Source: a virus. Taken from it: 64,000 nucleotides of DNA. The notes under the pieces were generated by a model. The model was not told where the DNA came from. It worked only from the letters and a program-made list of their open reading frames with translations, and searched no databases. The stretch is from positions 103,480 through 167,479 of IMG/VR virus record IMGVR_UViG_3300008108_000039. The stretch is one strand, 5' to 3'. Positions within the stretch are counted from its first letter, which is position 1. Each line of letters begins with the position of its first letter. This document shows positions 31,593 through 47,116 of the stretch, piece after piece. Position numbers and translations under genes: made by a program.

Positions 31593-31617
31593 AATAATTA
31601 ATTATACATAAATGTAA

Positions 31618-31648
31618 ATAGGTGACTTAGATAAACTAAATCACCTAT
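31618..31648 (-). terminator. Imperfect hairpin between nuclease and polyprotein genes
   Basis: A 13-base arm pair (ATAGGTGACTTAG / CTAAATCACCTAT, one mismatch) surrounds a 5-base loop. It is followed by TACATTTATG on the minus strand, and a TATTTATA box overlaps its upstream edge. U-tract is weak. It may separate the replication genes from the packaged-protein block and carry a promoter for the latter. Confidence 0.55.
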
Positions 31649-31672
31649 AAATATATATATTTCTAATGCTAT

Positions 31673-32458
31673 TTATACGTTAATTTTAATACTTGTTGGT
31701 AGTAATTCAGTAGCTGGTTTAAAGTCTGGGTTTTCTAGTTTATATATTTCGTATATATTTTTGAACATATTAAAATTAGTAGCAATATTATCTATGGCTT
31801 TTAATTGCCATCCTTTACCTTGTATGTTATCTCCTTTTCCTTCACCACGAGTAGCAGCTTTTAACCACAATATTCCTGTTCTTTCAATAAGATTATCATG
31901 AGTTTCATTCCAAGCTATAGCATAAGCTGCTAACTGCAAATCATGACTAGTATGAAGTGAATTTGATGTTTTAATATCTATTAACCATAATTGGTTATTT
32001 ATTTTTACTATTAAGTCTGCGGTTCCTGCGAATTTATGAGCATCGGAAAATAAATGATATTCTGTTGTTACTAATTCTGGCTTATGTGTATTCCAAAACT
32101 CAGCAAATTTTAAAATCATTTTCCAAACATCTAAACTATATTGAGCTTCACCATATTCATTAATCCATGGGATTTCATTACCATTTAAAAATGATTCTAT
32201 AGCGTTGTGTACTTGAGTACCTTCAGCAGCAGCTTTAGAAGCAATAACATCACTATTATGTCCTACATCTTTAAGCCAATTATGAAAAAACTGGTTTTTA
32301 GGAAAATAATTTAAAATTGATGTTACGGAAGGATAATATTCACCATTACGCCTATAAAATCGTGAGTCTAAAACATTAATTTGTTTATCTCCTTCAGAAT
32401 ATTCAACAATACGTTTTATTCTAGGATCTTTTATAATATTTGCATTTTTATCAATCAT
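31673..32458 (-). CDS. PD-(D/E)XK exonuclease, RecB/Cas4-like
   Basis: This 261-residue nuclease has the RecB-type order: GTQVHNAIESFLNG (His84), then TTEYHLFSDAHKFAGTADLI (Glu133, Asp148), WLIDIKTSN (Asp161-Ile-Lys163) and LQLAAYAIAW (Gln175). The N-terminus YPSVTSILNYFPK is also typical. Phage members act in recombination or host DNA degradation. It overlaps primase by four bases, so both are in a replication/recombination unit. No cysteine cluster is seen, so it is not an iron-sulfur Cas4. Confidence 0.85.
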   Translation of the reverse strand: MIDKNANIIKDPRIKRIVEYSEGDKQINVLDSRFYRRNGEYYPSVTSILNYFPKNQFFHNWLKDVGHNSDVIASKAAAEGTQVHNAIESFLNGNEIPWINEYGEAQYSLDVWKMILKFAEFWNTHKPELVTTEYHLFSDAHKFAGTADLIVKINNQLWLIDIKTSNSLHTSHDLQLAAYAIAWNETHDNLIERTGILWLKAATRGEGKGDNIQGKGWQLKAIDNIATNFNMFKNIYEIYKLENPDFKPATELLPTSIKINV

Positions 32459-33396
32459 ATTAATTGTAATTTTTTTTCAAGCAAACTTTGTAATGTTAAA
32501 GGTTTAGTTTGCCCAATAGTGTTTAAAAATACTTCAAAACCAATCTCATTAGCATCTTTACCTTCTAATTCTACCATGTAAACTTCTTTACCAAATGACA
32601 TAAGTTTTTCAGCATGCTTTAGAGCATCTTTTTTAGCATCATTGTCTAATGCAATATATATTCTATCTACAGAAGATTTAACTAATTTTTCCATTAGTTT
32701 ATCATGTAATACTTTTCCTAATAAAGGAATACAATTGCGTTTAATTGTTATAGCATCAAACATACCTTCACAAAGTATAATAGGTGCATCCCAATTTATA
32801 TATAATTCAAAACCTATAATGTCTTTAGAAGACACAGGTGGATTTTTATATTTTCTTAAAGAAGGTTCTTTATAATCTCTAGCTGTAAAATAATTTAATA
32901 TTCCATTAGCATCATAAGATGGAATTATTATTCTACCTTCATATTTTCCATCTTTACAAAATCCTATGTTATATTTTATAATATCGTCTTTAGTAATATT
33001 TCTTTTTTTTAAAAATTTTAAAGCATGTTTAGATTCAATTTGTGCTATTTTATCTTCAACTGGTTTTGATAGGGGTATAAATTCTTGAGGAAGTGTTAGT
33101 GAGGTATAGGGTATATGTTCTTCTTTATTTGCGGGTTGGATTAATAAATCCAAATCTTTAAATTTATCAGGAGAAGTATTAATTCTTTTAAATAATGAAC
33201 GTATAGTTTTACCTTTAGCATTGCATATCCAACAATGCCAAAAATTTTCACGTTTTGATGTAGTTTGTAAAGATACTTCTAGTTTATTTTTGTGGTGTAA
33301 ACAAAAAGGACATTTGAAAGCATAATTACCTTTACTTGTAGCTTGACTTTTACCTAAAACAGATTCTACTAATACTAGTAGGGCAGTATTTTCCAT
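32455..33396 (-). CDS. DNA primase (DnaG/T4 gp61 type)
   Basis: The 313-residue primase has an N-terminal zinc finger (Cys29, Cys32, His34/35; Cys55, Cys58 in FWHCWICNAKGK), a connecting helical region KFLKKRNITKDDIIKYNIGF, and a TOPRIM domain: GRIIIPSYDANG, IILCEGMFDAIT (Glu210) and IYIALDNDAKK (Asp251, Asp253). It makes RNA primers for lagging strand synthesis; the helicase is not in this window. The short length and the lack of a helicase domain match T4 gp61. Confidence 0.9.
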   Translation of the reverse strand: MENTALLVLVESVLGKSQATSKGNYAFKCPFCLHHKNKLEVSLQTTSKRENFWHCWICNAKGKTIRSLFKRINTSPDKFKDLDLLIQPANKEEHIPYTSLTLPQEFIPLSKPVEDKIAQIESKHALKFLKKRNITKDDIIKYNIGFCKDGKYEGRIIIPSYDANGILNYFTARDYKEPSLRKYKNPPVSSKDIIGFELYINWDAPIILCEGMFDAITIKRNCIPLLGKVLHDKLMEKLVKSSVDRIYIALDNDAKKDALKHAEKLMSFGKEVYMVELEGKDANEIGFEVFLNTIGQTKPLTLQSLLEKKLQLI

Positions 33397-33413
33397 AGGG
33401 GAAATATAAGATC

Positions 33414-33854
33414 TTATTTTGACTCTAACAAATCCTTAGTAAAAAATTTACCTAATATGTTATCATTATAAGATCTATCTTTACTAAATAGCACTTCTTC
33501 TTTGCATTGATAATGCATTTCATAATAAGTTAGTGCTTTTTTAGTTTTACATTGCATTAAAATCCAACATTCAAAATTATTTCCACCATATTCTTTAATA
33601 TCAGCAAGTAGTTGTTTATTTGACCCCCAATAAATCTTCCAATCACTTTCAGTACGAATTACTTCATGTGTTGGTTTACGACCAGGTCCTGTTTGCTCAG
33701 CAAGTTGTTTTTTAGTAAGTTTATGTTTTTTGTTATTCCAATAAACTTTTTTACCAATATAAAATTTTCCAGTTATGTTATTGGTAATTTTATAAACAAA
33801 ACCATGATATTTTTCAGGCTCAATTGGTGCCCAACTTTTCCATTTAAGTGTCAT
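33414..33854 (-). CDS. Seg-like GIY-YIG protein
   Basis: The 146-residue protein has GFVYKITNNITGKFYIGKK (the GIY-YIG core, residues 18-36), then ESDWKIYWGSNKQLLADIKE, CWILMQCKTKKALTYYEMHY with the Glu, and SYNDNILGKFFTKDL. It matches the small Seg-like phage proteins annotated as homing endonucleases, although many seem fixed and may be repair nucleases. It has no NUMOD tail. It overlaps the start of the upstream fibre-domain gene by 11 bases and lies next to primase. Confidence 0.75.
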   Translation of the reverse strand: MTLKWKSWAPIEPEKYHGFVYKITNNITGKFYIGKKVYWNNKKHKLTKKQLAEQTGPGRKPTHEVIRTESDWKIYWGSNKQLLADIKEYGGNNFECWILMQCKTKKALTYYEMHYQCKEEVLFSKDRSYNDNILGKFFTKDLLESK

Positions 33855-34164
33855 ATTTTATAACGAATGTCATGTCTGTGTTAGGAGATATTAATATAGG
33901 TTTACCAAATTTAGCTACAGCTAATAATTCATTGTCATCATTATATAGGCCTATAGCTGTAGTATATGGATTAAATTCAGAGCCAGATGGTAAAGATCCA
34001 GTAGCAAAATATTTTAAAGATCCACTAGCATAACTACCTTCTACTAAAGTTGGATTATATGATAAATTATAATCACTTTCTCTAACTAAGCAACGTACTT
34101 CGTTTTCGTAAACGATATGTTCGTTTTTAAAAGTTAAAGCAAAAGATCCTGTATGTGTTGGCAT
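33844..34164 (-). CDS. Stand-alone copy of a fibre/adhesin C-terminal domain
   Basis: This 106-residue protein matches the last ~90 residues of the virion protein encoded at 45418-46398: both have (I/V)GMYND-NELLAVAK(F/L)xKP and a final block of (K/I)xKxDY/T. It probably forms a small beta-sandwich tip domain. It lies at the far end of the glycosylation cassette, next to a PTPS-repeat gene, which suggests it is an interchangeable fibre tip or chaperone-like module. Overlaps the Seg-like gene by 11 bases. Confidence 0.6.
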   Translation of the reverse strand: MPTHTGSFALTFKNEHIVYENEVRCLVRESDYNLSYNPTLVEGSYASGSLKYFATGSLPSGSEFNPYTTAIGLYNDDNELLAVAKFGKPILISPNTDMTFVIKYDT

Positions 34165-34173
34165 TTTATTTAA

Positions 34174-34926
34174 TTAACATTGTGTACTAGCTTGTGATCC
34201 TACTTCACCAGTATTTGTATCTAAATTATAAGTAATAAAATATACATCATCACGAACAAATGAATATCCTTGAATCACACTCATAAGATTAATACTAGAA
34301 TATAATATCATTCCTGGTTGTAAACCTGAGCTTAGGTATAAACTATAATCTGTTGAATTAAGATATGCAAAACTATAACCAGCAATACATATAGAATTGG
34401 CATCATTATTTAATTGAACATAAATAAAGTTACCAGGAGCTGTTGATGGTGATGGTGTAATTGATGGTGTTCTTGATGGAGTAACAGTAATTGAAGGTGT
34501 TGGTGTCGGGGTAACATTCAATGATAATGATGGAGTTACTGATGGTGTTCTAGTAGGAGTTGGTGTAGGAGTTCTACTAACAGTTCTAGAAGGAGTAATA
34601 CTTGGAGTAACAGTAACAGATACTGTTCTAGAAGGTGTTATAGAAGGTGTTACAGTTATAGAAGGAGTTCTAGTTGGAGTTGGTGTTGGGCTTGGTGAAA
34701 CTGCAACTACTGTTAAGGTTTGTTGATTCCCACAAGCTTCATTATCATTTACTACAATAAAAACAGTGTCACTATTATCAGGTACAGAATAAAATCTACC
34801 TGCTTGTAATTGAGCAAATGTTAAACCACTCTCTAACCTATTAGCAAGAGATACAGAACTTGTATAAACACTATAAGGTCCATTAGCAGTACCAGAAGAT
34901 AAATATAAATAAACAGATTGTGGCAA
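34174..34926 (-). CDS. Mucin-like PTPS-repeat protein (short paralogue)
   Basis: The 250-residue protein starts with TTG (an in-frame stop lies three codons upstream), the best start since the N-terminal domain [20 protein letters not shown] begins there. Residues ~77-164 are Pro/Thr/Ser repeats ([20 protein letters not shown]). A C-terminal globular domain ([20 protein letters not shown] to the terminal Cys) follows. The repeats match those of the 921-residue protein at 42649-45414. The chain would be extended, and Thr/Ser next to Pro are typical O-glycosylation sites. The adjacent genes encode glycosyltransferases. Likely a virion surface spike; function inferred. Confidence 0.7.
34435..34698. 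repeat. PTPS-coding repeat array in short paralogue
   Basis: This is a second, shorter array of the same kind (about 88 residues, less regular: SITPSRTVS units) in the gene at the other border of the sugar cassette. Homology at the DNA level to the large array could allow recombination deleting the cassette between them. Confidence 0.75.
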
Positions 34927-34940
34927 GTTATATTATTTTA

Positions 34941-34948
34941 TATAAATA
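34941..34948 (-). promoter_or_regulatory. TATTTATA box before short PTPS-repeat gene
   Basis: The box lies in the 22-base gap after the glycosyltransferase fusion gene, 15-22 bases before the TTG start. Confidence 0.35.
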
Positions 34949-36643
34949 TTAATTTTCACGTCTTTCTTCAGGTTTATACCATACTATTCGATTGTGATTG
35001 ATAGGAGATGCTAATAATATTGCAGGTTTTAAATTACCTTTACGAGTTTCTTGAAACATATAGCTCATCCATGTTTGTTCATAAGGATGTGCCCATTTAG
35101 TATCAAGAAACATTTTTTTATTACCTTCTTTACTTACAATCATAGGCCAATTAGCATAATATATTTCACCTGTAATGTAACTTAATTCATCTAATACTTC
35201 AATTTTATTAAATTGAGTACGAGGAGCATTAGGATCTAAACCATTTATTGGTAATTTTGAATAATAAGGCCATATTTCTTCCCTAATATTTTGAGGAACA
35301 TTATACCAAGATACTTGAATATTGTTATCCATGTATACTTCTGTATATGACAATTTAAGAAAATCAAATTTTTCCTTAAGCATTATTTTATGGATTTTAT
35401 CATATAAATTAGGGATATATTGTCTAAATCCATTTCTACAGAATTTACCTTCCATAGATAAATCATGCAAACACATATCATCCTCTAAAAACACATAATA
35501 ATCGCTATCTGACTCAGCAAAATGTTCTGCTACAATTTGACGTCCACCACATATACCGCCGTTTTTACCGGTTATTATGTGCTCGAATCCATATTTATCT
35601 GCTATTATTTTATTATCAATTCGCGCTTGTTCATCTGTAGAGTTATCAATTAATATTTTGCGAGTTTTATCTAACCATTTAGGATGTTTTTCATAACTAG
35701 ATAATATTGTTTGTAATTGTTGAGGAAAATTAAATGTTAAAATGTATAATGATGTTTTAATATTATCTAAAGATAAACTAGGTTGAGCATATTGTATTCG
35801 TTTTTCGGGTATAGGCTCTAACTGAACTTTTTCTTCATCTAATGCTTGAATAAATTTAATTATTAATCCATTTTCATCAAGAGCAAAACGTCTATATTTT
35901 TCAGGTTGTAAATAAGACATTATAAGAAATATACTTTCTTCAGTTCCCATTAATCCTTCTGATAGTGATCTATCTACTAAAGAATAATAAAGTCCATTAG
36001 CTTCATGTATAGCTTCTTTAGTTCCACCAAATAATCCACCTCTACAAACCCATTTTGCAGTATCATTACAGTATTTATTTATTTCTTTAAATTTAAAACC
36101 ATGAATTTCATCTGTAGATTCATATGGGTATGATAAAAATAAAAATGGATTTAAATAAGAAGTAATTTTATCTAATACTTTTTGTTCTACAAAATATTTC
36201 TCATAAACTGTATTTGTAATACCTGCATCTAACCAGATAAAGTAATTAGTATTAAATGGATTCCAAATAGTAGAATCATGTAACATAAACATTTTAGACA
36301 TTACAATTGGATTATACCATTCATTAGATGCTTGAGGACTATTAGGTAACCATCCTCCAGGACCTGTCAAATTAAGCCATTCAGGATTAGTTCTTATTTG
36401 TTGAGTTTTATCCCAAAAAGGAGAATACAATCTTTTTACATCATCTAATTCATATATTTTTACAAAAGTATTTTCTTTTGAACGTTTAGTCCAAACTAAA
36501 TGTTCATATTCTTTAGGAATAAAGATAATTAAATTAGCATCTATATCTAAAAAATGATTAAAATGATGAATATAATGATCAAAAGATCGTCCTGGTCTAC
36601 TTATATTCCACAATCCTGTTACTATGGTTAAATCTTTATTCAT
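34949..36643 (-). CDS. Two-domain glycosyltransferase: HtrL/YibB-like plus GT2
   Basis: The protein has 564 residues. The N-terminal ~270 residues begin LTIVTGLWNISRPGRS and include NPIVMSKMFMLHD, YFIWLDAGITNT (Asp139) and GGLFGGTKEAI, the pattern of HtrL/YibB-family putative glycosyltransferases. The C-terminal part (from ~295) starts SLYILTFNFPQQLQTILSSY and has KNGGICGGRQIVAEH and YVFLEDDMCLHD (Glu387-Asp388-Asp389), a GT-A fold, family 2-like. Two catalytic domains in one chain could add two consecutive sugars. It starts right after the previous gene's stop. Sugar donors unknown. Confidence 0.7.
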   Translation of the reverse strand: MNKDLTIVTGLWNISRPGRSFDHYIHHFNHFLDIDANLIIFIPKEYEHLVWTKRSKENTFVKIYELDDVKRLYSPFWDKTQQIRTNPEWLNLTGPGGWLPNSPQASNEWYNPIVMSKMFMLHDSTIWNPFNTNYFIWLDAGITNTVYEKYFVEQKVLDKITSYLNPFLFLSYPYESTDEIHGFKFKEINKYCNDTAKWVCRGGLFGGTKEAIHEANGLYYSLVDRSLSEGLMGTEESIFLIMSYLQPEKYRRFALDENGLIIKFIQALDEEKVQLEPIPEKRIQYAQPSLSLDNIKTSLYILTFNFPQQLQTILSSYEKHPKWLDKTRKILIDNSTDEQARIDNKIIADKYGFEHIITGKNGGICGGRQIVAEHFAESDSDYYVFLEDDMCLHDLSMEGKFCRNGFRQYIPNLYDKIHKIMLKEKFDFLKLSYTEVYMDNNIQVSWYNVPQNIREEIWPYYSKLPINGLDPNAPRTQFNKIEVLDELSYITGEIYYANWPMIVSKEGNKKMFLDTKWAHPYEQTWMSYMFQETRKGNLKPAILLASPINHNRIVWYKPEERREN

Positions 36644-37450
36644 TTATTTTAAATAACCCTTTTGTACAAAATACATATAATTTTCATCTATTTTATTATG
36701 TCTAAATAAATTACAACCTTCCAATCCTTCATGAGAAGTATGTCTTAATACAGGAAAAGTTTCAACTCCACCTCTTTGAGTCCATTCTTCATGTGTTATT
36801 AAAGGTGTATCATGTTCATAAAAAGTAACTAAACGTGATATTCCTTGTTTAGACATATAAGCAGACACTACAATATCATCGGACCATGATTTATCAACAA
36901 AATCAGTAAAAAAATCATCTTCAAACCATTTACGTCTATAAGATATTGTTTTATAGTGTTGTAAATGATTAACATATACATTTTTAAAAACAGATACTAC
37001 ATAATAATTTCTAACATCATCAAACACTGTTGGATCTTCTGCTCTAACTCCGTCATACCCAACAGCTGTATTTGGGAATCTATATTGATTTTTTACTTGT
37101 TCATCTACCATTTTAGGATGGTAAACCAAATCATCATCGCAAACAATAATAATAGCTTCAGGGTCATCAACACGTTTAATAGTATGAGCTAATTTAGTAA
37201 TTGAACCTAAATCTTCTAATCCTTCAAATATTTTAAATTTAGGATTATTAACAGATAATTCTCTTAACCATCCAGGAATAATATATTCTTCCCCAGTTTG
37301 TTTATAAACACCAGGCACATTAAAGTGAATTTCATATTCGCCTTCATAATCCTGATTAATAAGTGAACTAATGTTACTTTTAATTCCAGAATCATAGTCT
37401 TGAGTTATTCTACTTGGAATTGTTGTTAATGTTACAATTACTTTATCCAT
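36644..37450 (-). CDS. GT-A glycosyltransferase with CDDD motif (copy 1)
   Basis: The 268-residue protein has a GT-A fold: VIVTLTTIPSRI at the start, a Rossmann-type middle, and IIIVCDDDLVYHP supplying the Asp-x-Asp metal/nucleotide-sugar site. Later SYRRKWFEDDFFTDFVDKSW and SDDIVVSAYMSKQG give the acceptor side. It is a paralogue of the next gene upstream (same VTLTT(I/V)P start, CDDD(L/H)VYH and RRKWFEDDF / KRKYFKEDF), with an eight-base overlap. Substrate unknown. Confidence 0.72.
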   Translation of the reverse strand: MDKVIVTLTTIPSRITQDYDSGIKSNISSLINQDYEGEYEIHFNVPGVYKQTGEEYIIPGWLRELSVNNPKFKIFEGLEDLGSITKLAHTIKRVDDPEAIIIVCDDDLVYHPKMVDEQVKNQYRFPNTAVGYDGVRAEDPTVFDDVRNYYVVSVFKNVYVNHLQHYKTISYRRKWFEDDFFTDFVDKSWSDDIVVSAYMSKQGISRLVTFYEHDTPLITHEEWTQRGGVETFPVLRHTSHEGLEGCNLFRHNKIDENYMYFVQKGYLK

Positions 37451-38291
37451 TTTTTTCTATATATATTATATCGTGATTTTGTAATAATTGATAAATAAAA
37501 TCTTCTGCTCTTCCATATGAATCTCCGCTTTTTTGTCTAAATTCCCAAAAACCTGAATTAGGATAAGGTAAACTATATTTAATTGGGAATGAATATGCAG
37601 GACGACCATATTCATTTACTGGTCTCCAGTCTGTTTCTTGGTCCCATGTTACACATCTAAAATCAATTTGGTGTTTTTTACAATAATACCCCATAAGAGT
37701 ATCATCATTGTCACTAGATAATAATAATTCTCTATTAAAATCTTCTTTAAAATATTTCCTTTTATAACTAGCTGAATGCCAATGACCAGGTACGGTTAAT
37801 TGAAGATCATATTTGACAGGAAAATAAAAATGAGTTGTTCTTAATACATATTTTTTAATGTTATCTTCTTCCCATTCTCTTTTTTCAACAGGAGTATCAC
37901 CTCTAAAAACAATAACTGAATTAGGGTATTGTTTTAATTTTTTTAAATGGTATTCTAACATATCTTCATGATATACATGATCATCATCACATATAATTAA
38001 TATATCTTCAGGATCTTGTGATATATCTAGAACACCAGTAATTTTAACTATAGGACCAAAATCTTCATCTACTCTATGTATAATTAGTTTAGAATTTTGC
38101 AAAGCAAATTGCTTTAAGTTATCATTTATAATATATTCTTCATCATTATTATTTTTATAATAATAAGGAATACTTAATACTACTTTATAATCTTTATCAG
38201 TATTTTGATTTAAAAGTGATGTTAAATTTTGTTCAAAAGATTCCCACAAATTTATTCTTATAGGAACTGTTGTTAATGAAATATATATCAT
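37443..38291 (-). CDS. GT-A glycosyltransferase with CDDD motif (copy 2)
   Basis: The 282-residue protein starts MIYISLTTVPIRINLWESFE and has DILIICDDDHVYHEDM as its Asp-x-Asp site, then SASYKRKYFKEDFN and SSDNDDTLMGYYCKKHQ. Homology to the neighbouring gene is clear along the whole length, so the pair arose by duplication. Divergence in the acceptor half (PVNEYGRPAYSFPIKYSLPY) suggests distinct substrates. Lies one base from the methyltransferase-like gene stop. Confidence 0.72.
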   Translation of the reverse strand: MIYISLTTVPIRINLWESFEQNLTSLLNQNTDKDYKVVLSIPYYYKNNNDEEYIINDNLKQFALQNSKLIIHRVDEDFGPIVKITGVLDISQDPEDILIICDDDHVYHEDMLEYHLKKLKQYPNSVIVFRGDTPVEKREWEEDNIKKYVLRTTHFYFPVKYDLQLTVPGHWHSASYKRKYFKEDFNRELLLSSDNDDTLMGYYCKKHQIDFRCVTWDQETDWRPVNEYGRPAYSFPIKYSLPYPNSGFWEFRQKSGDSYGRAEDFIYQLLQNHDIIYIEKNG

Positions 38292-38292
38292 A

Positions 38293-39090
38293 TTATAATG
38301 TTTTTAAAAAACTTAAATTACATTCTAATGTAGAAGTGTTGTTAGGATAATCTAAATCTTTTATAGGATAATCTTGATTGTCTGGTGTTAATTCTGTAAT
38401 ATATTTTCTATTTACAAATGAAAATTCAGCTACTCTTGGAACTGTATGCCCTTCATATATAAATTCACCTCCCCAATTATTGCCATGAACATGTGTTAAA
38501 ATAAAGTGTTTATTAAGTTTTTCCATCATTGTTACAAATCTTTCTTGGTTTTGTGGTTGTTCTAACCAATGTACTTCAACTACAATTCCACAAACAAATG
38601 TTGCTAAATCATCAATATCAGCATGAATAAAATAATCATATTCTGCCCCTTCTGTATCAATTTTTAAAAATATATCACCTTCAATTTTAAATTCATTATA
38701 ATGTTCTCTAACGTCTTTAACACTTAAAGTATCAGATAAATTTTTAACAGTTTCAGAAATTACTTCTAATGCTTTTCTAAGCTTTTTTATTTTAGTTATA
38801 CTTTTATCTTCATTTAAATCACTAAGTGCTTTAGCTAAAATATTTTTTCTTATATCTAATTCTTGAAGTAAACTTAATTCTTTATCATTATTTGGTTTAT
38901 TTGAGCCTAACCCTTCAGGATAAAAATATTGTTCACCTTGACCATAACTTTTATCACCACCATAACCATAAGTAAATAACGTAGTACATTGTTTAAGTAC
39001 TATTTCTGATGCAACATAACCACCATCGCTTTTATTACCTAAGCGAATTTTTGGGGAATTAATTTTGTAAGGTTTAAAATATTTTAACAT
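38293..39090 (-). CDS. FkbM-like SAM methyltransferase
   Basis: The 265-residue protein contains the FkbM hallmark IFLKIDTEGAEYDYF and an N-terminal IRLGNKSDGGYVASE. After TLFTYGYGGDKSYG, the usual SAM-loop is partly replaced by a Lys/Leu-rich insert (about residues 60-125, LRKALEVISETVKNLSDTLS). The C-terminal HGNNWGGEFIYEGHTVPRVA and EFSFVNRKY match sugar-modifying members. Such enzymes O-methylate glycans. The insert leaves it uncertain whether the SAM site is intact. Its position inside the glycosyltransferase run indicates glycan capping. Confidence 0.65.
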   Translation of the reverse strand: MLKYFKPYKINSPKIRLGNKSDGGYVASEIVLKQCTTLFTYGYGGDKSYGQGEQYFYPEGLGSNKPNNDKELSLLQELDIRKNILAKALSDLNEDKSITKIKKLRKALEVISETVKNLSDTLSVKDVREHYNEFKIEGDIFLKIDTEGAEYDYFIHADIDDLATFVCGIVVEVHWLEQPQNQERFVTMMEKLNKHFILTHVHGNNWGGEFIYEGHTVPRVAEFSFVNRKYITELTPDNQDYPIKDLDYPNNTSTLECNLSFLKTL

Positions 39091-39100
39091 AATTATTAAT

Positions 39101-40087
39101 TTAATAAGGAAATTCTATAAAATGGTCTTCGTAGTATTTTTTTAATTTGTCATAATTTTTATTTATGAAATCTTGTTTTCCTATCATTGATGGCTCCATA
39201 TTCATACCCCAATTCCAAAATCTATCTTCAGGATATGAGTTTATTTCAAAAGATTTAGTTCTAGAAAAACCAAATTCCTCAGTCCATGGAAAACATTTTA
39301 CATCTAATAAATTAAAAATTATTGATAATATTTGTTCAGATTGTAAATTCCACATGCTGTGTGTTCCTAAGAAAAAATATTCTTCTTTTTTAAGAACTAA
39401 AATATCATAAATAATATTGTTTAATAACTCAAAAAAAGGTTTAATCATTTCTTTATCAGGAAATCTAAGTGTTCTAAAATTACCATCAGTTACTGTAAAA
39501 TAATTAATTATTTCTTTATCTGTTAATTTATATTCATTATTAATATAAGTAGCACATGTTTTTAAAAATTTGCAATTTGTTTCATCATATGAACCTCCAG
39601 CAGGTGTTGAAATTATTTTATTTTCTAAAGACTCTGTAAAATTGGGATACGGATGTGAAGTTATAGGTTTATAAAAATAATTTTCTAATTTTTGATAATA
39701 TTCATCATTTATTACAGGTAAAACATCACAATCCATAAAAATAAATCCTAAATAATTTGTTACATTTTCCCATAAAAATACAAATCGTCTTAATAAAGTA
39801 GGAATTTTTACATTATTTTTTATAAAATATTCAGCATATTCTGCTTCATTATCAATTAATGGAGGTATTTTTTCTAACTCAATAGACCAAGGATAATTTT
39901 TTCGTAATTCATCCAAATTTTTAATAATTAAATTAGGCATAAAAGATACAGACGAAAAATAATCAACATCATCTGTCATTATAAATACATCAAAATATCT
40001 ATATGAAGAACATGTTTTCAGATTATATAATAATCTAGCTTTATGTGTAGGTCCTAAAGCAAATTGAACTATTAGTATTTTATCCAT
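39101..40087 (-). CDS. Glycosyltransferase-like protein with DCD motif
   Basis: The 328-residue protein starts ILIVQFALGPTHKARLLYNL and has YFDVFIMTDDVDYF, then LGFIFMDCDVLPVIND (Asp-Cys-Asp) where a GT-A enzyme holds its metal and UDP-sugar. HSMWNLQSEQILSIIF and an aromatic C-terminus follow. The overall order resembles GT6/galactosyl-type enzymes, but I would not fix the family. Directly abuts the next gene. Confidence 0.6.
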   Translation of the reverse strand: MDKILIVQFALGPTHKARLLYNLKTCSSYRYFDVFIMTDDVDYFSSVSFMPNLIIKNLDELRKNYPWSIELEKIPPLIDNEAEYAEYFIKNNVKIPTLLRRFVFLWENVTNYLGFIFMDCDVLPVINDEYYQKLENYFYKPITSHPYPNFTESLENKIISTPAGGSYDETNCKFLKTCATYINNEYKLTDKEIINYFTVTDGNFRTLRFPDKEMIKPFFELLNNIIYDILVLKKEEYFFLGTHSMWNLQSEQILSIIFNLLDVKCFPWTEEFGFSRTKSFEINSYPEDRFWNWGMNMEPSMIGKQDFINKNYDKLKKYYEDHFIEFPY

Positions 40088-41356
40088 TTAATCTATTTTA
40101 TGTTCTACTCGTTCACACCAACCTTTATTATCACTGTAAGCCCAATATACTACTCTAGATGGTTTTTTATTTACTAGAAAAAACTCTTCATAATGGATAT
40201 TTTGTCCTTTATTAAAATTATCTAGTTCTGTTCCTTTAATTATTTTAGTACTAATAGAGTTACCTATTTCATCATCAAATGCTATTAATACAAATGAATA
40301 ATCATTACTAGTAAATTGTGCTTTATTAACATTAACTAAATAATAAAAAGATTCCATAAAGGATTGTTCCCACAATTCATCATTTTCAATAACTGGGTTG
40401 GGAGGGTAATTATTATCTAGTGTGTATTTTTGTACTGCTTTTTTCTTAAAGTTAAAACCAGCATATTTTTCATAATCACGCAATGTTCTTACAGTCCCTA
40501 AATCATATCCTGTTAAATCAATATTTGGGTCTTCTTCAGTACGTAATAAACATCTAATCTTTTTACGGGCATATTCTTGTTTATTAAACCAATCTACACC
40601 TAATTTAGAATCATCATCCCATTTAAGTCTTCCTGCTCTTTCTTCTCTCATAGTAGAATGCCAAATAACTATTTTATGAGGATGAAAGAAATCATATCCG
40701 TGAGTATATGAACGAACAGTTAAATTTATTTCTTCACCACTAAAATAAATATCAGGATCGTGTTTTATTTCACGAGCCCATTCGCTTCTAGCGAAATCAA
40801 AATGACCACATAAAAATCTGGACATAGGAGGTTCAGTCATTTCTTCATATCCATGTAATAATCCTGGTCTAATAAATATAGTACCATGAGGATAAAAACA
40901 AGCAAATTGTGATTGCCAGGGTTCCATTGATCTGCCTGCAGGATCATTAAATGGATCATATAAAGGTGAATAGCCTGCTATAATAGGTTTATAACCTTTT
41001 TGTTCAAGATCATTATGCATTTGGATTAAAGTTTCATCCCAATCTTGAGCAAATCGATGATGAGAATCTAATTGACAAACATAATCTTCGTCTGTTAGTA
41101 ATTGTTCATTAATTATAGCTCTAGCCCAAGGTAATCCTTTAGCTTCTTTATAATCACATTCAAATATTTTAAATCGTTTATCAGATTTAAATTCTGTAAG
41201 ATCGTCAAAACCATCTTCAGGGTGGAATTGTCTACAAATTCCAAAATGAATGCGTTTAGGATATTTTGCTTTATCTAAAGCATCCTTAATAGTAGGTATT
41301 AGTTCAGGATCTCTATAAGCTGGTAAATGTAATAATATAGTTGGTTTTTTACTCAT
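40088..41356 (-). CDS. Polypeptide GlcNAc-transferase-like (GT60) glycosyltransferase, copy 1
   Basis: The 422-residue protein follows the GT60 (UDP-GlcNAc:polypeptide GlcNAc-transferase) layout: ILLHLPAYRDPELIPTIKDA, then IHFGICRQFHPEDGF, AKGLPWARAIINEQ, YVCQLDSHHRFAQDWDETL (Asp97-Ser-His, the family's DSHxRF motif), and FSGEEINLTVRSYTHGYDFF with HPHKIVIWHSTMRE. Eukaryotic members (Dictyostelium Skp1 GnT1, trypanosome mucin enzyme) attach GlcNAc to Thr or hydroxyproline of Thr/Pro-rich proteins. The C-terminal ~100 residues are an added domain (SFVLIAFDDEIGNSIS). Paralogue of the next gene upstream, overlapping it by eight bases. Confidence 0.75.
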   Translation of the reverse strand: MSKKPTILLHLPAYRDPELIPTIKDALDKAKYPKRIHFGICRQFHPEDGFDDLTEFKSDKRFKIFECDYKEAKGLPWARAIINEQLLTDEDYVCQLDSHHRFAQDWDETLIQMHNDLEQKGYKPIIAGYSPLYDPFNDPAGRSMEPWQSQFACFYPHGTIFIRPGLLHGYEEMTEPPMSRFLCGHFDFARSEWAREIKHDPDIYFSGEEINLTVRSYTHGYDFFHPHKIVIWHSTMREERAGRLKWDDDSKLGVDWFNKQEYARKKIRCLLRTEEDPNIDLTGYDLGTVRTLRDYEKYAGFNFKKKAVQKYTLDNNYPPNPVIENDELWEQSFMESFYYLVNVNKAQFTSNDYSFVLIAFDDEIGNSISTKIIKGTELDNFNKGQNIHYEEFFLVNKKPSRVVYWAYSDNKGWCERVEHKID

Positions 41357-42605
41357 AATTTATTTTTTGTTCTATAACATCACACCAACCTTTTAATTTA
41401 CTATGTGGCCATACTCTCCAACTATAAGGTTGTTTATTATCTTCATATTCTCTCCAAATATGAATAAAATTGTCTTTAGGATCTATTGTTAGTATATTTT
41501 TTAATTCATGTTCATCACAATCTTGTCTATAAAGATCATTTCCATTTTCATCTAACAAAGCTACTACAAATAAATCATAATCATTTTCAGGTAAAGATCC
41601 TTTATAAACATCAATACAAACTTTTATTTTATTGCATAAACCTGATTCATAATCTCCTTGTGTTGGTGGATGTTTATGTTCTAAAGTATACTTATGTATT
41701 TGTCTAGTTTTAAATTTTAAACCAGCATATTTCTCATAATGTTCTAATGTTCTTTGAGTTCCAAACCAATATTTTCCAAATTCTTTTGCAATACACCCTC
41801 CACACCCTTCATTCATACCAAATAAAGCTCTAAAACGAGCATATGATCTTTTATCATGCTCACCAAAATTAGAATTATCATCCCAATGTTTCTTTTTACC
41901 TTCTCTAGTATATTCATGCCAAGCATAAACTTTATGAGGATGAAATAAATCATATCCCCAGGTATAAGCACGAACGGCTAGTGATGTTTCTTCACCATGG
42001 AAATAAAAATTAGGATCATATGGAACTTCTTTAACAAATTTACCTAAGGTAAATATAAAATGAGCTGATATAAAGCGAGCAAATACAGGTTCTATCATAT
42101 CTTTCCATCCATCTAATCCTTGTGGCCTTAAAAATACAGCTCCTTCAGGTAAAAATCTATCTATATTTAACATCCAACATTCATTAATACGATCATTAGG
42201 ATCTTTATCTGGAAAGTATGATGGTAAATACGTTGATAATAGAGGTTTATAGTATCCAACACATCTTAAATAATTTAAAATATCAATTAATTCAGTATCC
42301 CAATTTTTAATAAAGCGATGATGTGAATCTAATTGAAAATAATAATCTTCGTCTTGGTAATATTCTTGAATTTTAGCTCTAGCCCAACATACACCTTGAG
42401 CTTCATTATAGGGTATATCTATAATTTTAAATCTAGGATCATCTTTATATTGTTCTAAAGTATCCCATTCGTCTTCTACAGAATGTTGCCAAGCAATGCA
42501 TATTGTTAGTCTATCAGGATTAGCAGCATTAGATAATAAATTATCTAGTGTAGATAATAATTCAGGATCTCTATAAGCAGCTATTGAAACAAAGATTTTA
42601 GACAT
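41349..42605 (-). CDS. Polypeptide GlcNAc-transferase-like (GT60) glycosyltransferase, copy 2
   Basis: The 418-residue paralogue has IFVSIAAYRDPELLSTLDNL, AQGVCWARAKIQEYY, YYFQLDSHHRFIKNWDTEL (91-), HGEETSLAVRAYTWGYDLFH and HPHKVYAWHEYTREGK, the same GT60 signature. It also ends with the added domain (YDLFVVALLDENGNDLYR, SWRVWPHSKLKGWCDVIEQK). It is the first sugar gene downstream of the large PTPS-repeat protein, as expected if the two act together. Donor and acceptor specificity are inferred from family only. Confidence 0.75.
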   Translation of the reverse strand: MSKIFVSIAAYRDPELLSTLDNLLSNAANPDRLTICIAWQHSVEDEWDTLEQYKDDPRFKIIDIPYNEAQGVCWARAKIQEYYQDEDYYFQLDSHHRFIKNWDTELIDILNYLRCVGYYKPLLSTYLPSYFPDKDPNDRINECWMLNIDRFLPEGAVFLRPQGLDGWKDMIEPVFARFISAHFIFTLGKFVKEVPYDPNFYFHGEETSLAVRAYTWGYDLFHPHKVYAWHEYTREGKKKHWDDNSNFGEHDKRSYARFRALFGMNEGCGGCIAKEFGKYWFGTQRTLEHYEKYAGLKFKTRQIHKYTLEHKHPPTQGDYESGLCNKIKVCIDVYKGSLPENDYDLFVVALLDENGNDLYRQDCDEHELKNILTIDPKDNFIHIWREYEDNKQPYSWRVWPHSKLKGWCDVIEQKINYE

Positions 42606-42648
42606 AACTATAATATATAACTTTTATTTTGAATTTCCAACTTGTAAA

Positions 42649-45414
42649 TTAAAAGCAAGCAAATATATCATTATTATTAACATATACTGTTATATTAATA
42701 TCAGTACTTGTTGAAACAGTTATATTATACCCACAATATGTAGGATCATTAGAAGGACAACCTCCCCCTGTTTGAGCATTAAAATATACAGGAGTTCCTA
42801 CACCATCTATTACTCGAACATAAAAATTATTTCCATTAGTTACATCAACGCTACCCATTGTATTACATGTTGTTTGATCTATAGTTGGTGTAAAACTAGT
42901 ATAATTTACATTATCATTTGACCATTGAACAGTGCATATAGTATTTGTTTGAGAATCACCATATTTAGCATTTACATTTATTGAAGATTGTGCTGGAACG
43001 GGTGATGTACTAGGTGTTGGTGTTAAGGATGGTGTTGGTGTTAAGGAGGGTGTTAATGATGGAGTAGGTGTAGGTGATGGACAAACACTACAAGCTGAAA
43101 TTACTGTAGCAACATTACCACTAACAGTAGCTGTTACAAAGTTTCCAGCAAATGAAATATACACTGTTTGACCATTAAAGGCACTAAGACAACTTGCTGT
43201 GAATGTAGTACAGCTACAGAAATTAGAAGAATTACCTTGTAAATTACATGATGTAGCTCCAATTCCAGAACATGCACTATTAGAATCAGTTGAAATTAAT
43301 GCATTAAATAAGAATGGTGATGTTGATGGAGTTGGCGTTATGCTCGGAGTAGGAGTAATACTTGGAGTTGGCGTTATACTTGGAGTTGGCGTTATAGAAG
43401 GAGTTCTAGTAATACTTGGAGTAGGTGTTATACTAGGTGTTGGTGTAATACTTGGAGTAGGAGTAATACTTGGAGTTGGAGTTATTGATGGCGTTGGGGT
43501 TACAGAAGGAGTTCTAGTAATACTTGGAGTAGGAGTAATTGATGGAGTTGGTGTAATACTTGGTGTTGGTGTTATGCTTGGGGTAGGTGTTATACTTGGA
43601 GTAAGACTTATACTTGGGGTTGGTGTTATTGATGGAGTTAATGATGGAGTAGGTGTTATACTAGGTGTTGATGTAATACTTGGTGTTGGTGTAATACTTG
43701 GAGTAGGAGTAATTGATGGAGTTGGTGTAATACTTGGAGTAGGAGTAATTGATGGAGTTGGTGTTAATGATGGAGTTCTAGTAATACTTGGAGTAGGAGT
43801 TATACTTGGAGTAATACTGATAGATGGAGTTATACTAATACTTGGAGTAATACTGATAGATGGAGTTATACTAATACTAGGTGTTAGTGATGGAGTTGGT
43901 GTTATACTTGGAGTAGGTGTAATACTAATACTAGGTGTTACTGATGGAGTAATCGTTATTGACGGAGTAGGAGTTACACTAGGTGTTAAAGTTATACTTG
44001 GTGTTATTGACGGAGTAGGAGTTATTGATGGTGTTGGTGTTACAGAAGGTGTTATTGTAATTGATGGTGTTATACTAGGAGTTCTAGAAGGAGTAATTGA
44101 AATAGATGGTGTTACAGAAGGTGTTATACTAATACTTGGAGTAATACTAATAGAAGGTGTTATACTAATAGATGGAGTTGGAGTAATAGAAGGTGTTACA
44201 GATGGTGTTATACTAGGAGTTCTAGAAGGAGTAATTGAAATAGATGGTGTTATACTTGGAGTAACTGAAGGAGTTACTGTTGGTGTGGTAGTTGGAGTTG
44301 CCGTTGGTGTAATAGATGGAGTTGGCGTTATAGAAGGTGTTACAGTAATACTTGGTGTTATAGTAACACTAGGAGTAATTGTTATAGAAGGAGTAGGAGT
44401 TATACTTGGAGTACGAGTTGGAGTTACAGAAGGTGTTGGTGTTATACTTGGAGTTACAGTAACACTAGGAGTACGACTAGGTGTAATTGAAGGGGAAGGA
44501 GCTATTAAAGCATAGCTAATTCCAAAATCACAGTCAGGGCAAGTTAAATCAACTGTTATTAATCCTAAATTACTTGTAAGTAAACAACCACTACCTAACT
44601 GAGAATTAATAGTATGATATATTTGATATCTTGTATTAGATTTAAAAGAATTCAATGTTACTGTTCCATTACCATTATTAGTAAATAATGATACTTGATC
44701 TGCACTTCCTGATAACACAACTGAGTTAGGTAATAAAGTAGCATTACTTCTAGCTATATCATTTGTTATTACACTAAAAGTTTTATTAACATTATTTGAA
44801 GGAAAAGTAGCATATACAGCTCTTGCTAATGGAGGTAATGGAAATATATCTTGATAATCTTGATTAGTAATTACCATTAATCCTTGAGGGTAAAATACAT
44901 TTCCTATATGAGTTGTATTATAATCATAAAGATTTCCATTCCCATCATCAGTAATATAATAAGCAGATGAGGATAATATTATATTATAAGGTAATAATTT
45001 ATTACCATATATATCTTGTCTAACAGCTAATACACGAATACCAGCATTAGAAGCTGTTGGAAAATTATTTATAAATCGAGGATTTTCATCATAATTAAAA
45101 TATGATGCAGAAGCTGGTTGTTGAGAAGCAGAAACGTAGAAAACTGTATTTGCAATAGAAGAAGTATTAATAATAGAACCACTAAAAGCATGATAAAACA
45201 TATGATTCATTTGATCATAAATCAAACGTTCATATTGACCCTCTGTTACTGGGTCGCTTGTAGTATTAAAACTTCCTGTAAGGTTAGTACCTTTATAGAT
45301 TATTAGGCTTTGATCATTTTGTGGATAGCAATTATAGGATAAATTCCATTGCCTATTAGCAGCATAAGCTACATGCGTAACATCTGATTTGCTTAGTTTT
45401 CTGAATGAAGACAT
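42649..45414 (-). CDS. Mucin-like PTPS-repeat virion protein (921 aa)
   Basis: Residues 1-305 form a globular N-terminal region ([40 protein letters not shown]) related in style to the neighbouring tail-tip proteins and likely the attachment part. Residues ~306-699 are Pro-Thr/Ser repeats, mostly the hexad PTPSIT with variants SITPSR and TPSISI. A Cys-rich domain (~700-775, [24 protein letters not shown]) follows, then a second short PTPS block (~778-804) and a C-terminal beta domain ending NDIFACF. The repeat DNA is near-tandem 18-mers (43316-44499). It is probably an extended fibre, with hundreds of Thr/Ser candidates for O-glycosylation by the adjacent enzymes. Confidence 0.78.
43316..44499. 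repeat. Degenerate 18-bp tandem repeat array coding PTPSIT
   Basis: On the plus strand the array reads as variants of GGAGTAGGAGTAATACTT with no stop codon in one antisense frame for 438 codons. About 65 hexapeptide units with drift and block duplications are seen (for example paired ISITPS blocks). The array should change length by slippage or unequal recombination. Confidence 0.85.
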
Positions 45415-45417
45415 GCA

Positions 45418-46398
45418 TTAATAATCTAATTTGATTCTTATTAGGGCTTCTTTTGTAAAATCTTTTACTAAAGGTTTACTTAATTTTGCTACAGCTAATA
45501 ATTCATTATTATCATTATACATACCTACTGTGGTAATGTAGGTTTGTGGATTATTAATTAATGTAGTGTAAACTAAATTACCATTAGAATCTATAATAGA
45601 AGGATTTGTTGTATAATTAAATTCACCATTCTTTATACGAGTAAAGAAATAACGTGAAGACACAGTTTCAGAAGATCTTAGTTGAAATAAAGATCCTGTA
45701 GTAATAGAATTAAATAAATTTAAATGGTTAAATACCGCAGTTGAAACAGATCCTGTATTAGGTAATGTCATAAAAGTTGCTAATCCACCATTTACAGCAG
45801 CATTTAATACTATAATATTAAGATCTGGGAAGAATAATCCATAATAAATTGAAGGTGAAGTTAATGGATTCCAGTGATTACCATTACTACCACTAATAAT
45901 ATTAAAATATCTATTTTCTCCTATATAGCGAGATAAACTTGTAGTACCACTATCATCAGTTAATTGTAAACTACCACTTAATCTTAGATTAAGAGATCCA
46001 GGTTGAATAGATTCTTTGTAACGAGCTCTTGAAATATTAATTACATATATAGAAGGAGATGTTGTAAGACCTCCATCAAAACTAAAGTTTTGAGTTTCAG
46101 TTCCATAAACTAAAGTTCTATATTGACCATATACTACACGAGAAGGAGTATATCCAACTACAGAAGAATTAATAGGAGCTGAACCAGACCCACTAACGTG
46201 TCCATATTGAATACTAAACTGCAATGAACATGAAGTACAAGTGTTTACATTTGCATTGTAAACATCTAAATAATATTCAGTATATCCACTTTGAGTAAAA
46301 AATGAAGTTAAACCATAATTATCTCCACTCCATAAACCTCGTACTACAGTTTCTGAACTAATTACTGAATCATCTATTGCGTATCTTGAAAATGACAT
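45418..46398 (-). CDS. Tail-tip / adhesin-like virion protein (326 aa)
   Basis: The protein is beta-rich and Ser/Thr/Tyr/Asn-rich throughout. The N-terminus SFSRYAIDDSVISSETVVRG, then LWSGDNYGLTSFFTQSGYTE, opens a block seen in environmental T4-like phage structural proteins; NTCTSCSLQFSIQYGHVSGS follows. The last ~90 residues (YFFTRIKNGEFNYTTNPSII, VGMYNDNNELLAVAKLSKPL) are shared with the small protein at 33844-34164. It lies between baseplate genes and the mucin-like fibre. Its start is 13 bases after the upstream stop. Receptor or fibre role inferred. Confidence 0.6.
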   Translation of the reverse strand: MSFSRYAIDDSVISSETVVRGLWSGDNYGLTSFFTQSGYTEYYLDVYNANVNTCTSCSLQFSIQYGHVSGSGSAPINSSVVGYTPSRVVYGQYRTLVYGTETQNFSFDGGLTTSPSIYVINISRARYKESIQPGSLNLRLSGSLQLTDDSGTTSLSRYIGENRYFNIISGSNGNHWNPLTSPSIYYGLFFPDLNIIVLNAAVNGGLATFMTLPNTGSVSTAVFNHLNLFNSITTGSLFQLRSSETVSSRYFFTRIKNGEFNYTTNPSIIDSNGNLVYTTLINNPQTYITTVGMYNDNNELLAVAKLSKPLVKDFTKEALIRIKLDY

Positions 46399-46411
46399 TT
46401 TTTATATTATT

Positions 46412-47077
46412 TTAGAATGTTGCTACTTTTTGAATATTTAAAGGAATAGTAACTCTTGCACCACTATCTCTACCAATTACTGTAATAGTAGTTGTTAATG
46501 TAGATAAACTAGACCCAAATAAAGTATTAATTGTTGTACCAGTTAATGTAAATGAAGTACCTAACTGAGAGAAAGATAGAACAGTACCTGATGTAGTATT
46601 AGCAATTGAAGAAGCAGGAGTTGTTGCTGTAATTCCGGTACCTGTAAATGATGATAATAAGCGAATATCTGCTATTGTAGCTATATACCCATTAGTTTCA
46701 AATGTTGAAACAGCTCCTAAATAATTAAGAGTTTGAGGAGTAATTGTTAAAGAAGCACCTTGTTTAAGAGCAATACTACTATATCCAATATTAATAACTG
46801 GTAATTTAGAAGTTCCGCGAGGTAAAGTTACTAATTTATAACGCATCATTTGCGTATCTTCAGGGAAAGCTTCTATAACAGGCATATTTTCAATAGCCTC
46901 ACCATAAAACGCCGACCCTGATGGATGGTTTGGGTTATATAAAGTATAATCAACTTCATCATCTGCTAAAGCAAATTGCGTAATTTGAAATGAACCATCA
47001 TTACGAGCTAATAATTCACGCCCTTTTGTGGTTAATATTGCATCTACAGTAACTGTTGTAGGATTTAAAATTGCCAT
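46412..47077 (-). CDS. Conserved virion protein with LTTKGRELLARNDGSF motif
   Basis: The 221-residue product begins AILNPTTVTVDAILTTKGRE and continues LLARNDGSFQITQFALADDE, a signature I recognise from baseplate-proximal proteins of environmental T4-like phages. It then has VDYTLYNPNHPSGSAFYGEA and a short Ig-like C-terminal half (GIGTTITVIGRDSGARVTIP approximately). It probably connects the baseplate to fibres. A TATTTATA box lies 22-29 bases upstream, after the 1600-residue gene. Confidence 0.6.
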   Translation of the reverse strand: MAILNPTTVTVDAILTTKGRELLARNDGSFQITQFALADDEVDYTLYNPNHPSGSAFYGEAIENMPVIEAFPEDTQMMRYKLVTLPRGTSKLPVINIGYSSIALKQGASLTITPQTLNYLGAVSTFETNGYIATIADIRLLSSFTGTGITATTPASSIANTTSGTVLSFSQLGTSFTLTGTTINTLFGSSLSTLTTTITVIGRDSGARVTIPLNIQKVATF

Positions 47078-47098
47078 AAGTTTTTATATTGTATATAC

Positions 47099-47106
47099 TA
47101 TAAATA
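47099..47106 (-). promoter_or_regulatory. TATTTATA box before adhesin-region genes
   Basis: The box lies in the 39-base gap after the 1600-residue gene; candidate promoter for the adhesin, mucin-like and sugar genes. Confidence 0.35.
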
Positions 47107-47116
47107 TATTAAATTA

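Follow-up and report, generated by a model that had tools for sequence, protein, structure and literature searches.

A probable phage-encoded mucin-type O-glycosylation cassette in the tail-gene region of an uncultured bacterial virus

Results

The window analysed here is the whole stretch of 64,000 nucleotides taken from the virus record IMGVR_UViG_3300008108_000039 (167,479 bases), and the locus of interest, positions 34174-45414, lies in the tail-gene region of this uncultured bacterial virus. All nine open reading frames that the first-pass annotation had placed there, as a run of seven sugar-related genes between two repeat proteins, were confirmed at their coordinates on the minus strand, together with their CDDD, DCD and DSHHRF motifs. 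Read in the direction of transcription, a conserved tail protein (45418-46398) stands directly upstream of a large Pro/Thr/Ser-repeat tail protein of 921 aa (42649-45414), the proposed glycan acceptor, which is followed after about 44 bp by the GT60 polypeptide GlcNAc-transferase homologue a (41349-42605, 418 aa; PHROG 24687) and by homologue b (40088-41356, 422 aa). Next come a putative glycosyltransferase with a DCD motif (39101-40087, 328 aa), an FkbM-type methyltransferase (38293-39090, 265 aa), a GT2-type (37443-38291) and a GT2-like (36644-37450) glycosyltransferase, both with a CDDD motif, and an HtrL/YibB-GT2 fusion (34949-36643), the likely extender. The run is closed by a small Pro/Thr/Ser-repeat protein of 250 aa with a TTG start (34174-34926), a second possible acceptor, and beyond it, at the distal limit of the variable insert, a small tail protein (33844-34164, also on the minus strand) has a C-terminal segment in common with the product of 45418-46398. 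The genes are tightly packed, since the two GT60 frames overlap (41349/41356) and homologue b abuts its neighbour (40087/40088), and no terminator-like site was found on the minus strand between the two repeat genes. The region from the tail gene to the primase is highly variable. The phage itself is T4-like.

These two are the only Pro/Thr/Ser-repeat proteins of the record. The larger consists of a conserved N-terminal tail domain (aa 1-300; modelled at low confidence, pLDDT 45), a PTPS repeat block (aa 307-699, positions 43318-44496, minus strand) and C-terminal domains, and both gene order and the conserved tail domains suggest that it is a component of the virion. The 393 residues of the block are drawn solely from T, P, S, I, V, R, L and A (118 T, 102 P, 82 S and 65 I; C, K, D, E, N and Q are absent), 77% of them being P, T or S, and 195 Ser or Thr residues adjoin a Pro over the whole length of the protein. 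Between TPTPSI units of the same amino-acid sequence, codon identity amounts to 0.481, where the codon usage of the phage predicts 0.442, so that the synonymous codons are nearly randomised, recent DNA slippage is excluded and the amino-acid sequence of the repeat is under selection. By composition and by the codon test, the block is thus a long tandem region dominated by P, T and S and maintained at the protein level, as in mucin-type (PTS) domains. A tblastn search of cultured phages with the large protein, with low-complexity sequence filtered, gave no match.

The two DSHxRF proteins had been proposed to be GT60 enzymes, and a Pfam profile scan agrees, scoring them against PF11397 at 226 bits (homologue a, E 9.5e-67) and 164 bits (homologue b, E 6.7e-48) with a cut-off of 21; by their sequence, both are members of CAZy GT60/PF11397. 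They are 40% identical, and the DSHHRF motif and the GT60 motifs are present in both copies. The motifs of homologue a fall at residues 93-95 (DSH), 204-206 (GEE) and 229-230 (WH), and D93, H95, E206 and H230 are invariant across 60 phage and bacterial homologues. Its AlphaFold model has a pLDDT of 95, and the best 33 PDB matches to this model are all chains of ppGalNAc-transferases (E 1e-10 to 6e-9), so that homologue a has, as modelled, the fold of the mucin-type polypeptide transferases. Model match and residues together provide the GT-A fold, the DxH metal motif and the conserved catalytic residues of a GT60 enzyme, and the ricin-type C-terminal lectin domain was absent from the pair in the Pfam scan, which fits GT60/PF11397. 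A sequence search of solved structures with the GT60 profile returned nothing, and single-sequence matches to solved structures were dismissed as designed repeat or spurious proteins.

Glycosylation of the phage DNA, as in T4, would be another use for such transferases, and one that could be expected of a T4-like phage, given that some phage glycosyltransferases hypermodify DNA (Pyle et al. 2024, as cited in PMC12619734). Nevertheless, we consider it highly improbable, because the predicted fold of the GT60 enzyme is that of a polypeptide transferase, no hydroxymethylase was found beside the cassette or among the 25/32 families listed for the scanned part of the record, and the modification-like genes that were seen (QueC, 6-PTPS and GTP cyclohydrolase I) are of the 7-deazaguanine type.

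For the remaining enzymes, the family calls of the first-pass annotation stand for HtrL_YibB (PF09612, E 2.9e-11), for the GT2 protein at 37443-38291 (PF00535, E 9.6e-8) and for FkbM (PF05050, Methyltransf_21, E 1.4e-6), but the GT2 part of the fusion is a weak match, the protein at 36644-37450 falls below the cut-off (PF00535, E 7e-4) and the DCD protein is assigned by its motif, with no Pfam match. The two CDDD proteins are 30% identical. Among 64 related loci, the HtrL-GT2 fusion is the commonest partner of GT60 (50 loci), homologues of the DCD protein occur in five, and an FkbM gene is present in only eight. Moreover, the FkbM copy in the window has an in-frame gap, in the likely SAM-binding part, of about 24 residues; the 289-aa versions in the near-identical contig L007 and in the relatives L472 and L478 have these residues. 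The copy is possibly inactive, and for these reasons the earlier suggestion that FkbM caps the glycans by methylation is dropped.

No membrane segment was predicted in any cassette enzyme, as expected for the cytoplasmic modification of a virion protein. This bears on whether the cassette instead remodels the O-antigen or capsule of the host, blocking superinfection or changing a receptor. The same record does carry a second sugar-nucleotide cluster of O-antigen type (RfbH, a GDP-mannose 4,6-dehydratase-like protein, a C-methyltransferase and GT1/GT2), but the cassette, in which neither a flippase nor an anchor was found, lies inside the tail module beside a repeat tail gene, and its modelled GT60 fold matches peptide transferases, which leaves host-surface remodelling quite unlikely.

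The pairing of GT60 with a repeat gene recurs in other phages. Among 65 dereplicated phage loci, a Pro/Thr/Ser-repeat gene lies immediately upstream of GT60 (position -1) in 19, usually 20-64 bp away, and at position -2 in 7/55, whereas other positions hold one in only 17/924 cases (about 2%; Fisher 2e-15, uncorrected for kinship). The density of repeat ORFs is 0.48 per 10 kb in GT60 loci, compared with 0.11 around baseplate genes and 0 around terminase, with the reservation that many of the contigs in these two control sets are short and that one terminase control (G014) has a GT60 elsewhere. On the GT60 tree, the near-repeat label changes at least four times over the starred branches, so repeat proximity recurs in separate lineages. 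Bracketing by two repeat proteins, named in the first-pass annotation, holds true here but is one of several arrangements; more frequent is a repeat gene as the immediate upstream neighbour of GT60. Orthologues of the N-terminal tail domain of the large repeat protein (72 loci by an alignment-based search, four by a single-sequence search) carry repeats in 10/10 clusters with GT60 and in 14/27 without it (Fisher 0.007). In bacterial GT60 loci, repeat ORFs thin out from 0.36 per 10 kb at distances up to 1.5 kb to about 0 beyond 6 kb. GT60 is therefore positionally linked to Pro/Thr/Ser-repeat tail genes in several phage lineages and in some bacteria, and both its site in the tail module and this recurrent adjacency tie the glycosyltransferase genes to virion genes.

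The link is not universal. No repeat gene lies within 10 kb in 33/65 GT60 clusters, although in at least one of these (L025) a repeat ORF is cut by the contig end; among eight such contigs whose sequence was covered largely or completely, four to five have repeat tracts elsewhere and three have none. A sister lineage (L008/L010) keeps both GT60s with the repeats absent. From the opposite direction, starting from repeat DNA patterns in viral contigs, GT60 was nearby in only 7/119 loci, and the 73 downstream neighbours of repeat genes included three GT25, two GT60, two group-1, one GT4-type and one PLOD-type glycosyltransferase, so repeats do not imply GT60. The cassette might then act mainly on other virion proteins, namely Ser/Thr-rich tail or capsid proteins, with the repeat as merely a flexible stalk in the same variable tail region. 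Such a role would suit L008, in which both GT60 and the HtrL-GT2 fusion have Ser/Thr-rich neighbouring tail proteins with no Pro repeats, as well as the wide occurrence of repeats without GT60. We nevertheless regard it as unlikely, given that repeat genes at positions -1 and -2 of GT60 are far above other positions in several lineages and in bacteria, and that GT60 never occurs without repeats in the orthologous tail loci. Less plausible still, and in our judgement barely credible, is that repeat and sugar genes are non-functional hitch-hikers gathered in one hypervariable region. The variability between the tail gene and the primase and the gapped FkbM copy would accord with it, but the catalytic residues are invariant in 60 homologues, the amino acids of the repeat were kept while its codons drifted, and the adjacency recurs in bacteria.

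Discussion

Taken together, the genes and the structural model make it probable that the phage encodes here a cassette for the mucin-type O-glycosylation of a tail protein. Supporting this reading are the gene identities, the fold, the conservation of the active site, the selection on the repeat protein and the recurrent adjacency to repeat tail genes. The published function of GT60 in protists and the virion glycoproteins of phage XacN1, discussed below, also favour it. The earlier interpretation is partly supported as a whole, its core having come through tests that were able to overturn it. In the scheme that we envisage, the Thr/Pro/Ser block of 393 residues is the stalk of a tail protein made by the phage. 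In the cytoplasm of the infected cell, both GT60s would move HexNAc, most likely GlcNAc from host UDP-GlcNAc, onto the Thr and Ser residues of this block. The starter sugars would be lengthened or branched by the HtrL-GT2 fusion together with the two GT2 enzymes, and the glycoprotein would then become part of the tail, forming a bristle that is stiff, hydrated and resistant to proteases. We infer from the locus which protein is the acceptor, which sugar is used, how the steps follow one another and where the product sits in the virion; as to the role, our guess is the spacing of receptor-binding parts off the particle, protease shielding or adhesion.

Mucin-type O-glycosylation is usually regarded as eukaryotic. 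If a phage encodes a tail protein with a mucin-like domain and also the enzymes that start and extend its glycans, the system would be complete in itself, with a bearing on phage stability, adhesion and recognition, and would help to explain why Thr/Pro repeats and sugar genes occur together in the tail region of many environmental phages. Tentatively, and with a little less than even confidence, we suggest that GT60 and an adjoining Thr/Pro/Ser-repeat acceptor form one mobile module of general prokaryotic and phage mucin-type O-glycosylation, spread over several phage lineages and the Bacteroidota, Verrucomicrobiota and Proteobacteria, which would then not be a eukaryotic speciality.

In the GtfA/GtfB clusters of Gram-positive serine-rich repeat adhesins, a repeat acceptor is likewise encoded beside initiating and extending glycosyltransferases. 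Those systems differ in their initiating family, in their accessory secretion and in decorating the bacterial cell surface rather than, as proposed here, a virion; the Pfam scan of the cassette found no GT4-type match, and hence no GtfA/GtfB initiating pair, the putative initiating enzymes being of PF11397. The GT27 ppGalNAc-transferases of animal mucin-type O-glycosylation are the closest solved folds to the model of homologue a, but at about 11-16% identity; homologue a has a different C-terminal domain, and Pfam found no ricin-type lectin domain in it. In protists, GT60 enzymes initiate mucin-type O-glycans (PMC8724618, PMC6939170), and the UDP-GlcNAc:polypeptide alpha-GlcNAc-transferases of Dictyostelium, Trypanosoma cruzi and Toxoplasma (Gnt1) share with the proteins described here PF11397, the conserved DSH and a presumed mucin-type Thr/Pro-rich acceptor, whereas the present enzymes, as predicted from sequence, are phage-encoded, cytoplasmic, placed in a tail module and usually paired with an HtrL-GT2 fusion. 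Capsid glycosylation in chlorovirus PBCV-1, as cited in PMC5852040, is also virus-encoded and directed at the virus's own virion, although in a eukaryotic virus, by other enzymes and with no mucin repeat.

The nearest known systems also include phages with glycosyltransferases of their own and glycosylated virion proteins. Like the first-pass annotation, we found no description of a mucin-type substrate encoded with GT60 starters, but virion glycosylation by phage enzymes has been reported for mycobacteriophages, with capsid and tail-tube C-termini as acceptors (Freeman et al. 2023, as cited in PMC12619734), and proposed for XacN1 (PMC5852040). In the accessible portions of these sources, the XacN1 glycoproteins, at least two in the virion, are not named, a second glycosyltransferase (ORF328) is, and no mucin-type repeat acceptor such as ours is proposed for either system. 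XacN1 is one of three cultured phages with a GT60. Its homologue, ORF334, is 39% identical to the window protein, and a giant gene that directly follows the baseplate genes of this phage has Pro/Thr/Ser tracts at its end. The GT60 survey yields concrete gene pairs, one of them in a cultured phage with published virion glycoproteins.

Results

The virus record comprises 167,479 bases, of which the window is the final 64,000, and its PHROG matches (terminase, portal, major head protein, head-tail adaptor and baseplate wedge), together with the tail sheath and tail tube matched by Pfam, indicate a T4-like myovirus. The cassette sits where the tail region ends, with every gene on the minus strand: the baseplate wedge (53939-55747), a 1600-aa protein (47117-51919) and two conserved tail proteins (46412-47077 and 45418-46398) precede a large repeat protein (42649-45414), seven sugar genes, a small repeat protein (34174-34926) and a small tail protein (33844-34164), followed by a GIY-YIG-like gene, a primase and an exonuclease. 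Neighbouring genes of this region abut or overlap, and no terminator-like sites were found on the minus strand from the large to the small repeat gene. The genes, motifs and repeats observed in the first-pass annotation were all confirmed.

Residues 307-699 of the large repeat protein comprise T (118), P (102), S (82) and I (65), plus V, R, L and A and nothing else, Arg being the sole charged residue. When its 26 TPTPSI units are compared, their codons agree in 48% of cases, close to the 44% predicted by codon usage, so drift has affected the DNA and the protein has been retained. The N-terminal 300 residues form a conserved tail domain (approximately 52-68% identity in other phages), whose copies occupy the equivalent place, behind the same two tail genes, with repeats of highly variable length, sometimes zero. 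In relatives without long repeats (L494, L510, L516, L484 and L528), the same slot holds a conserved protein of approximately 319 aa, most copies of which contain MKNLRYICVQPR.LYYAWQVEVM, and in the L489-L514 group, with repeats and without GT60, it holds several extra repeat proteins, the largest of approximately 2,080 aa.

The two DSHxRF proteins, GT60a (41349-42605) and GT60b (40088-41356), both match PF11397, the comparison proposed in the first-pass annotation, and PHROG 24687. The 33 top PDB matches to the AlphaFold model of GT60a (pLDDT 95, pTM 0.90; 60-row alignment) are all ppGalNAc-transferases, with S. aureus TarS ranking below; because TM-scores against two-domain ppGalNAc-transferase chains are 0.4-0.5, the likeness is to the catalytic domain, not the full length. 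D93, H95, R97, E206, H230 and W241 are common to 60 phage and bacterial homologues; in ppGalNAc-transferases the metal motif is DSH, and the site is completed by a His farther along. GT60 enzymes from Dictyostelium and T. cruzi initiate mucin-type O-glycans as polypeptide alpha-GlcNAc-transferases (PMC8724618), and Toxoplasma Gnt1 belongs to the family too (PMC6939170). No membrane segments were predicted in the cassette enzymes. The steadiest GT60 partner is the HtrL-GT2 fusion (34949-36643; 50 of 64 loci), followed by the two GT2s (36644-37450 and 37443-38291; 13 and 13), FkbM (38293-39090; 8) and the DCD protein (39101-40087; 5). This FkbM copy is missing approximately 24 residues, in-frame, relative to the near-identical contig L007 and relatives, which may reflect either a deletion that inactivates the enzyme or a misassembly, and the FkbM step is therefore doubtful in this record.

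A protein-similarity search of IMG/VR that took no account of repeats supplied the GT60 loci, which merged at 90% identity into 65 clusters; the locus includes a repeat gene in 32 of them. This gene stands at -1 of GT60 in 19/65, at -2 in 7/55 and elsewhere within 12 genes in 17/924 (Fisher 2e-15 for the -1/-2 excess, clusters being treated as independent though related), and the -1 gap is 20-64 bp in 17 of the 19 cases and 95 and 237 bp in the other two. Mapped onto the GT60 tree, the state of having a repeat nearby requires 6 changes, at least four of them across strongly supported branches. In baseplate control loci the density of repeat ORFs is 0.11 per 10 kb, and each of them lies several kb downstream, matching the window's own repeat site; terminase control loci carry zero.

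A second survey, starting from the N-terminal tail domain and blind to GT60, gave 37 clusters whose downstream sequence was long enough. All 10 clusters with GT60 carry repeats, either within the tail gene itself or in a small repeat protein on the far side of GT60, versus 14 of the 27 clusters without GT60 (Fisher 0.007, related clusters again treated as independent); therefore, in this lineage GT60 implies repeats, and repeats do not imply GT60. A nearby repeat is absent in half of the GT60 clusters, and the closest sister, L008, has none. Since two contigs of the same phage (L007 and L224) break off inside or at the border of the repeats, some associations are hidden by assembly breaks. Eight GT60 contigs with no repeat nearby were read along all or most of their extent: repeat tracts lie elsewhere in four to five of them and are absent from three, and two GT60-free control contigs had none, all small numbers. 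The sister cassettes L008 and L010 keep both GT60s without repeats (L008 also the HtrL-GT2 fusion), behind LamG-like/Ser-rich tail proteins and ahead of a likely tail sheath gene, with several middle genes exchanged, one for a probable carbamoyltransferase.

A bacterial genome scan yielded 79 GT60 loci, in which repeat ORFs peak beside GT60 (0.36 per 10 kb within 1.5 kb, approximately 0 past 6 kb). In Jiulongibacter sediminis, a 262-aa repeat protein is flanked by two GT60s, and further cases are a Saprospiraceae MAG, a Prosthecobacter MAG, two Sphingomonas MAGs and Magnetospirillum; some of these bacterial loci may belong to prophages, or to phage contigs that were binned wrongly. GT60 adjoins a Thr/Pro/Ser-repeat protein in bacterial loci L385, L386, L404, L409, L411, L412, L439 and L461, from cultured strains and MAGs.

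Outside the window, a second sugar-nucleotide and glycosyltransferase block (G000:C1, approximately 30,350-48,670; L018:10351-20000 and L019:1-8667) encodes an RfbH-like dehydratase, 4-hydroxy-2-oxovalerate aldolase and acetaldehyde dehydrogenase, each above the NCBIfam cut-off, a GDP-mannose 4,6-dehydratase-like protein 0.5 bit below it, a C-methyltransferase, a TPP acetolactate-synthase-like enzyme, epimerases, GT2, a GT10-like protein and two GT1. It looks like branched deoxy sugar synthesis by the phage, which, given this block in the same record, may supply unusual sugars as well. The rest of the record (L019-L022) encodes GTP cyclohydrolase I, 6-PTPS and QueC (7-deazaguanine pathway), a Cpn60 chaperonin, a PARP domain, a bactofilin and four LamG-type proteins.

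Discussion

In the most likely mechanism, the phage would produce a tail protein with repeats, GT60a and GT60b would attach the initial sugar to Thr/Ser while it is in the cytoplasm, extension would fall to the HtrL-GT2 and GT2 enzymes, and tail assembly would take in the modified protein. The core of the first-pass interpretation, that the GT60 pair starts O-glycans on the phage's own repeats, is well supported by the comparisons; its FkbM capping, given the shortened copy, and its coat functions are not.

Among 50,697 phage records, only three encode a GT60, those of the cultured phages XacN1, CM1 and RAS14. In XacN1 and RAS14, the gene directly past the baseplate genes encodes a protein of 3,100-3,300 aa with Pro/Thr/Ser tracts at its end, approximately 9-10 kb from GT60. 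The accessible portion of the XacN1 report describes at least two virion glycoproteins, not named individually there, and proposes that the phage glycosyltransferases ORF328 and ORF334 make them (PMC5852040); of the two, ORF334 is the GT60 homologue. These glycoproteins come closest to experimental support. The open-access literature searched mentioned PF11397 in one paper, which concerns an alga, and contained nothing relevant on mucin-like domains and phage tail fibres. The cassette would be a case of phage virion glycosylation; the kind is already known, and what would be new here is its apparent mucin type.
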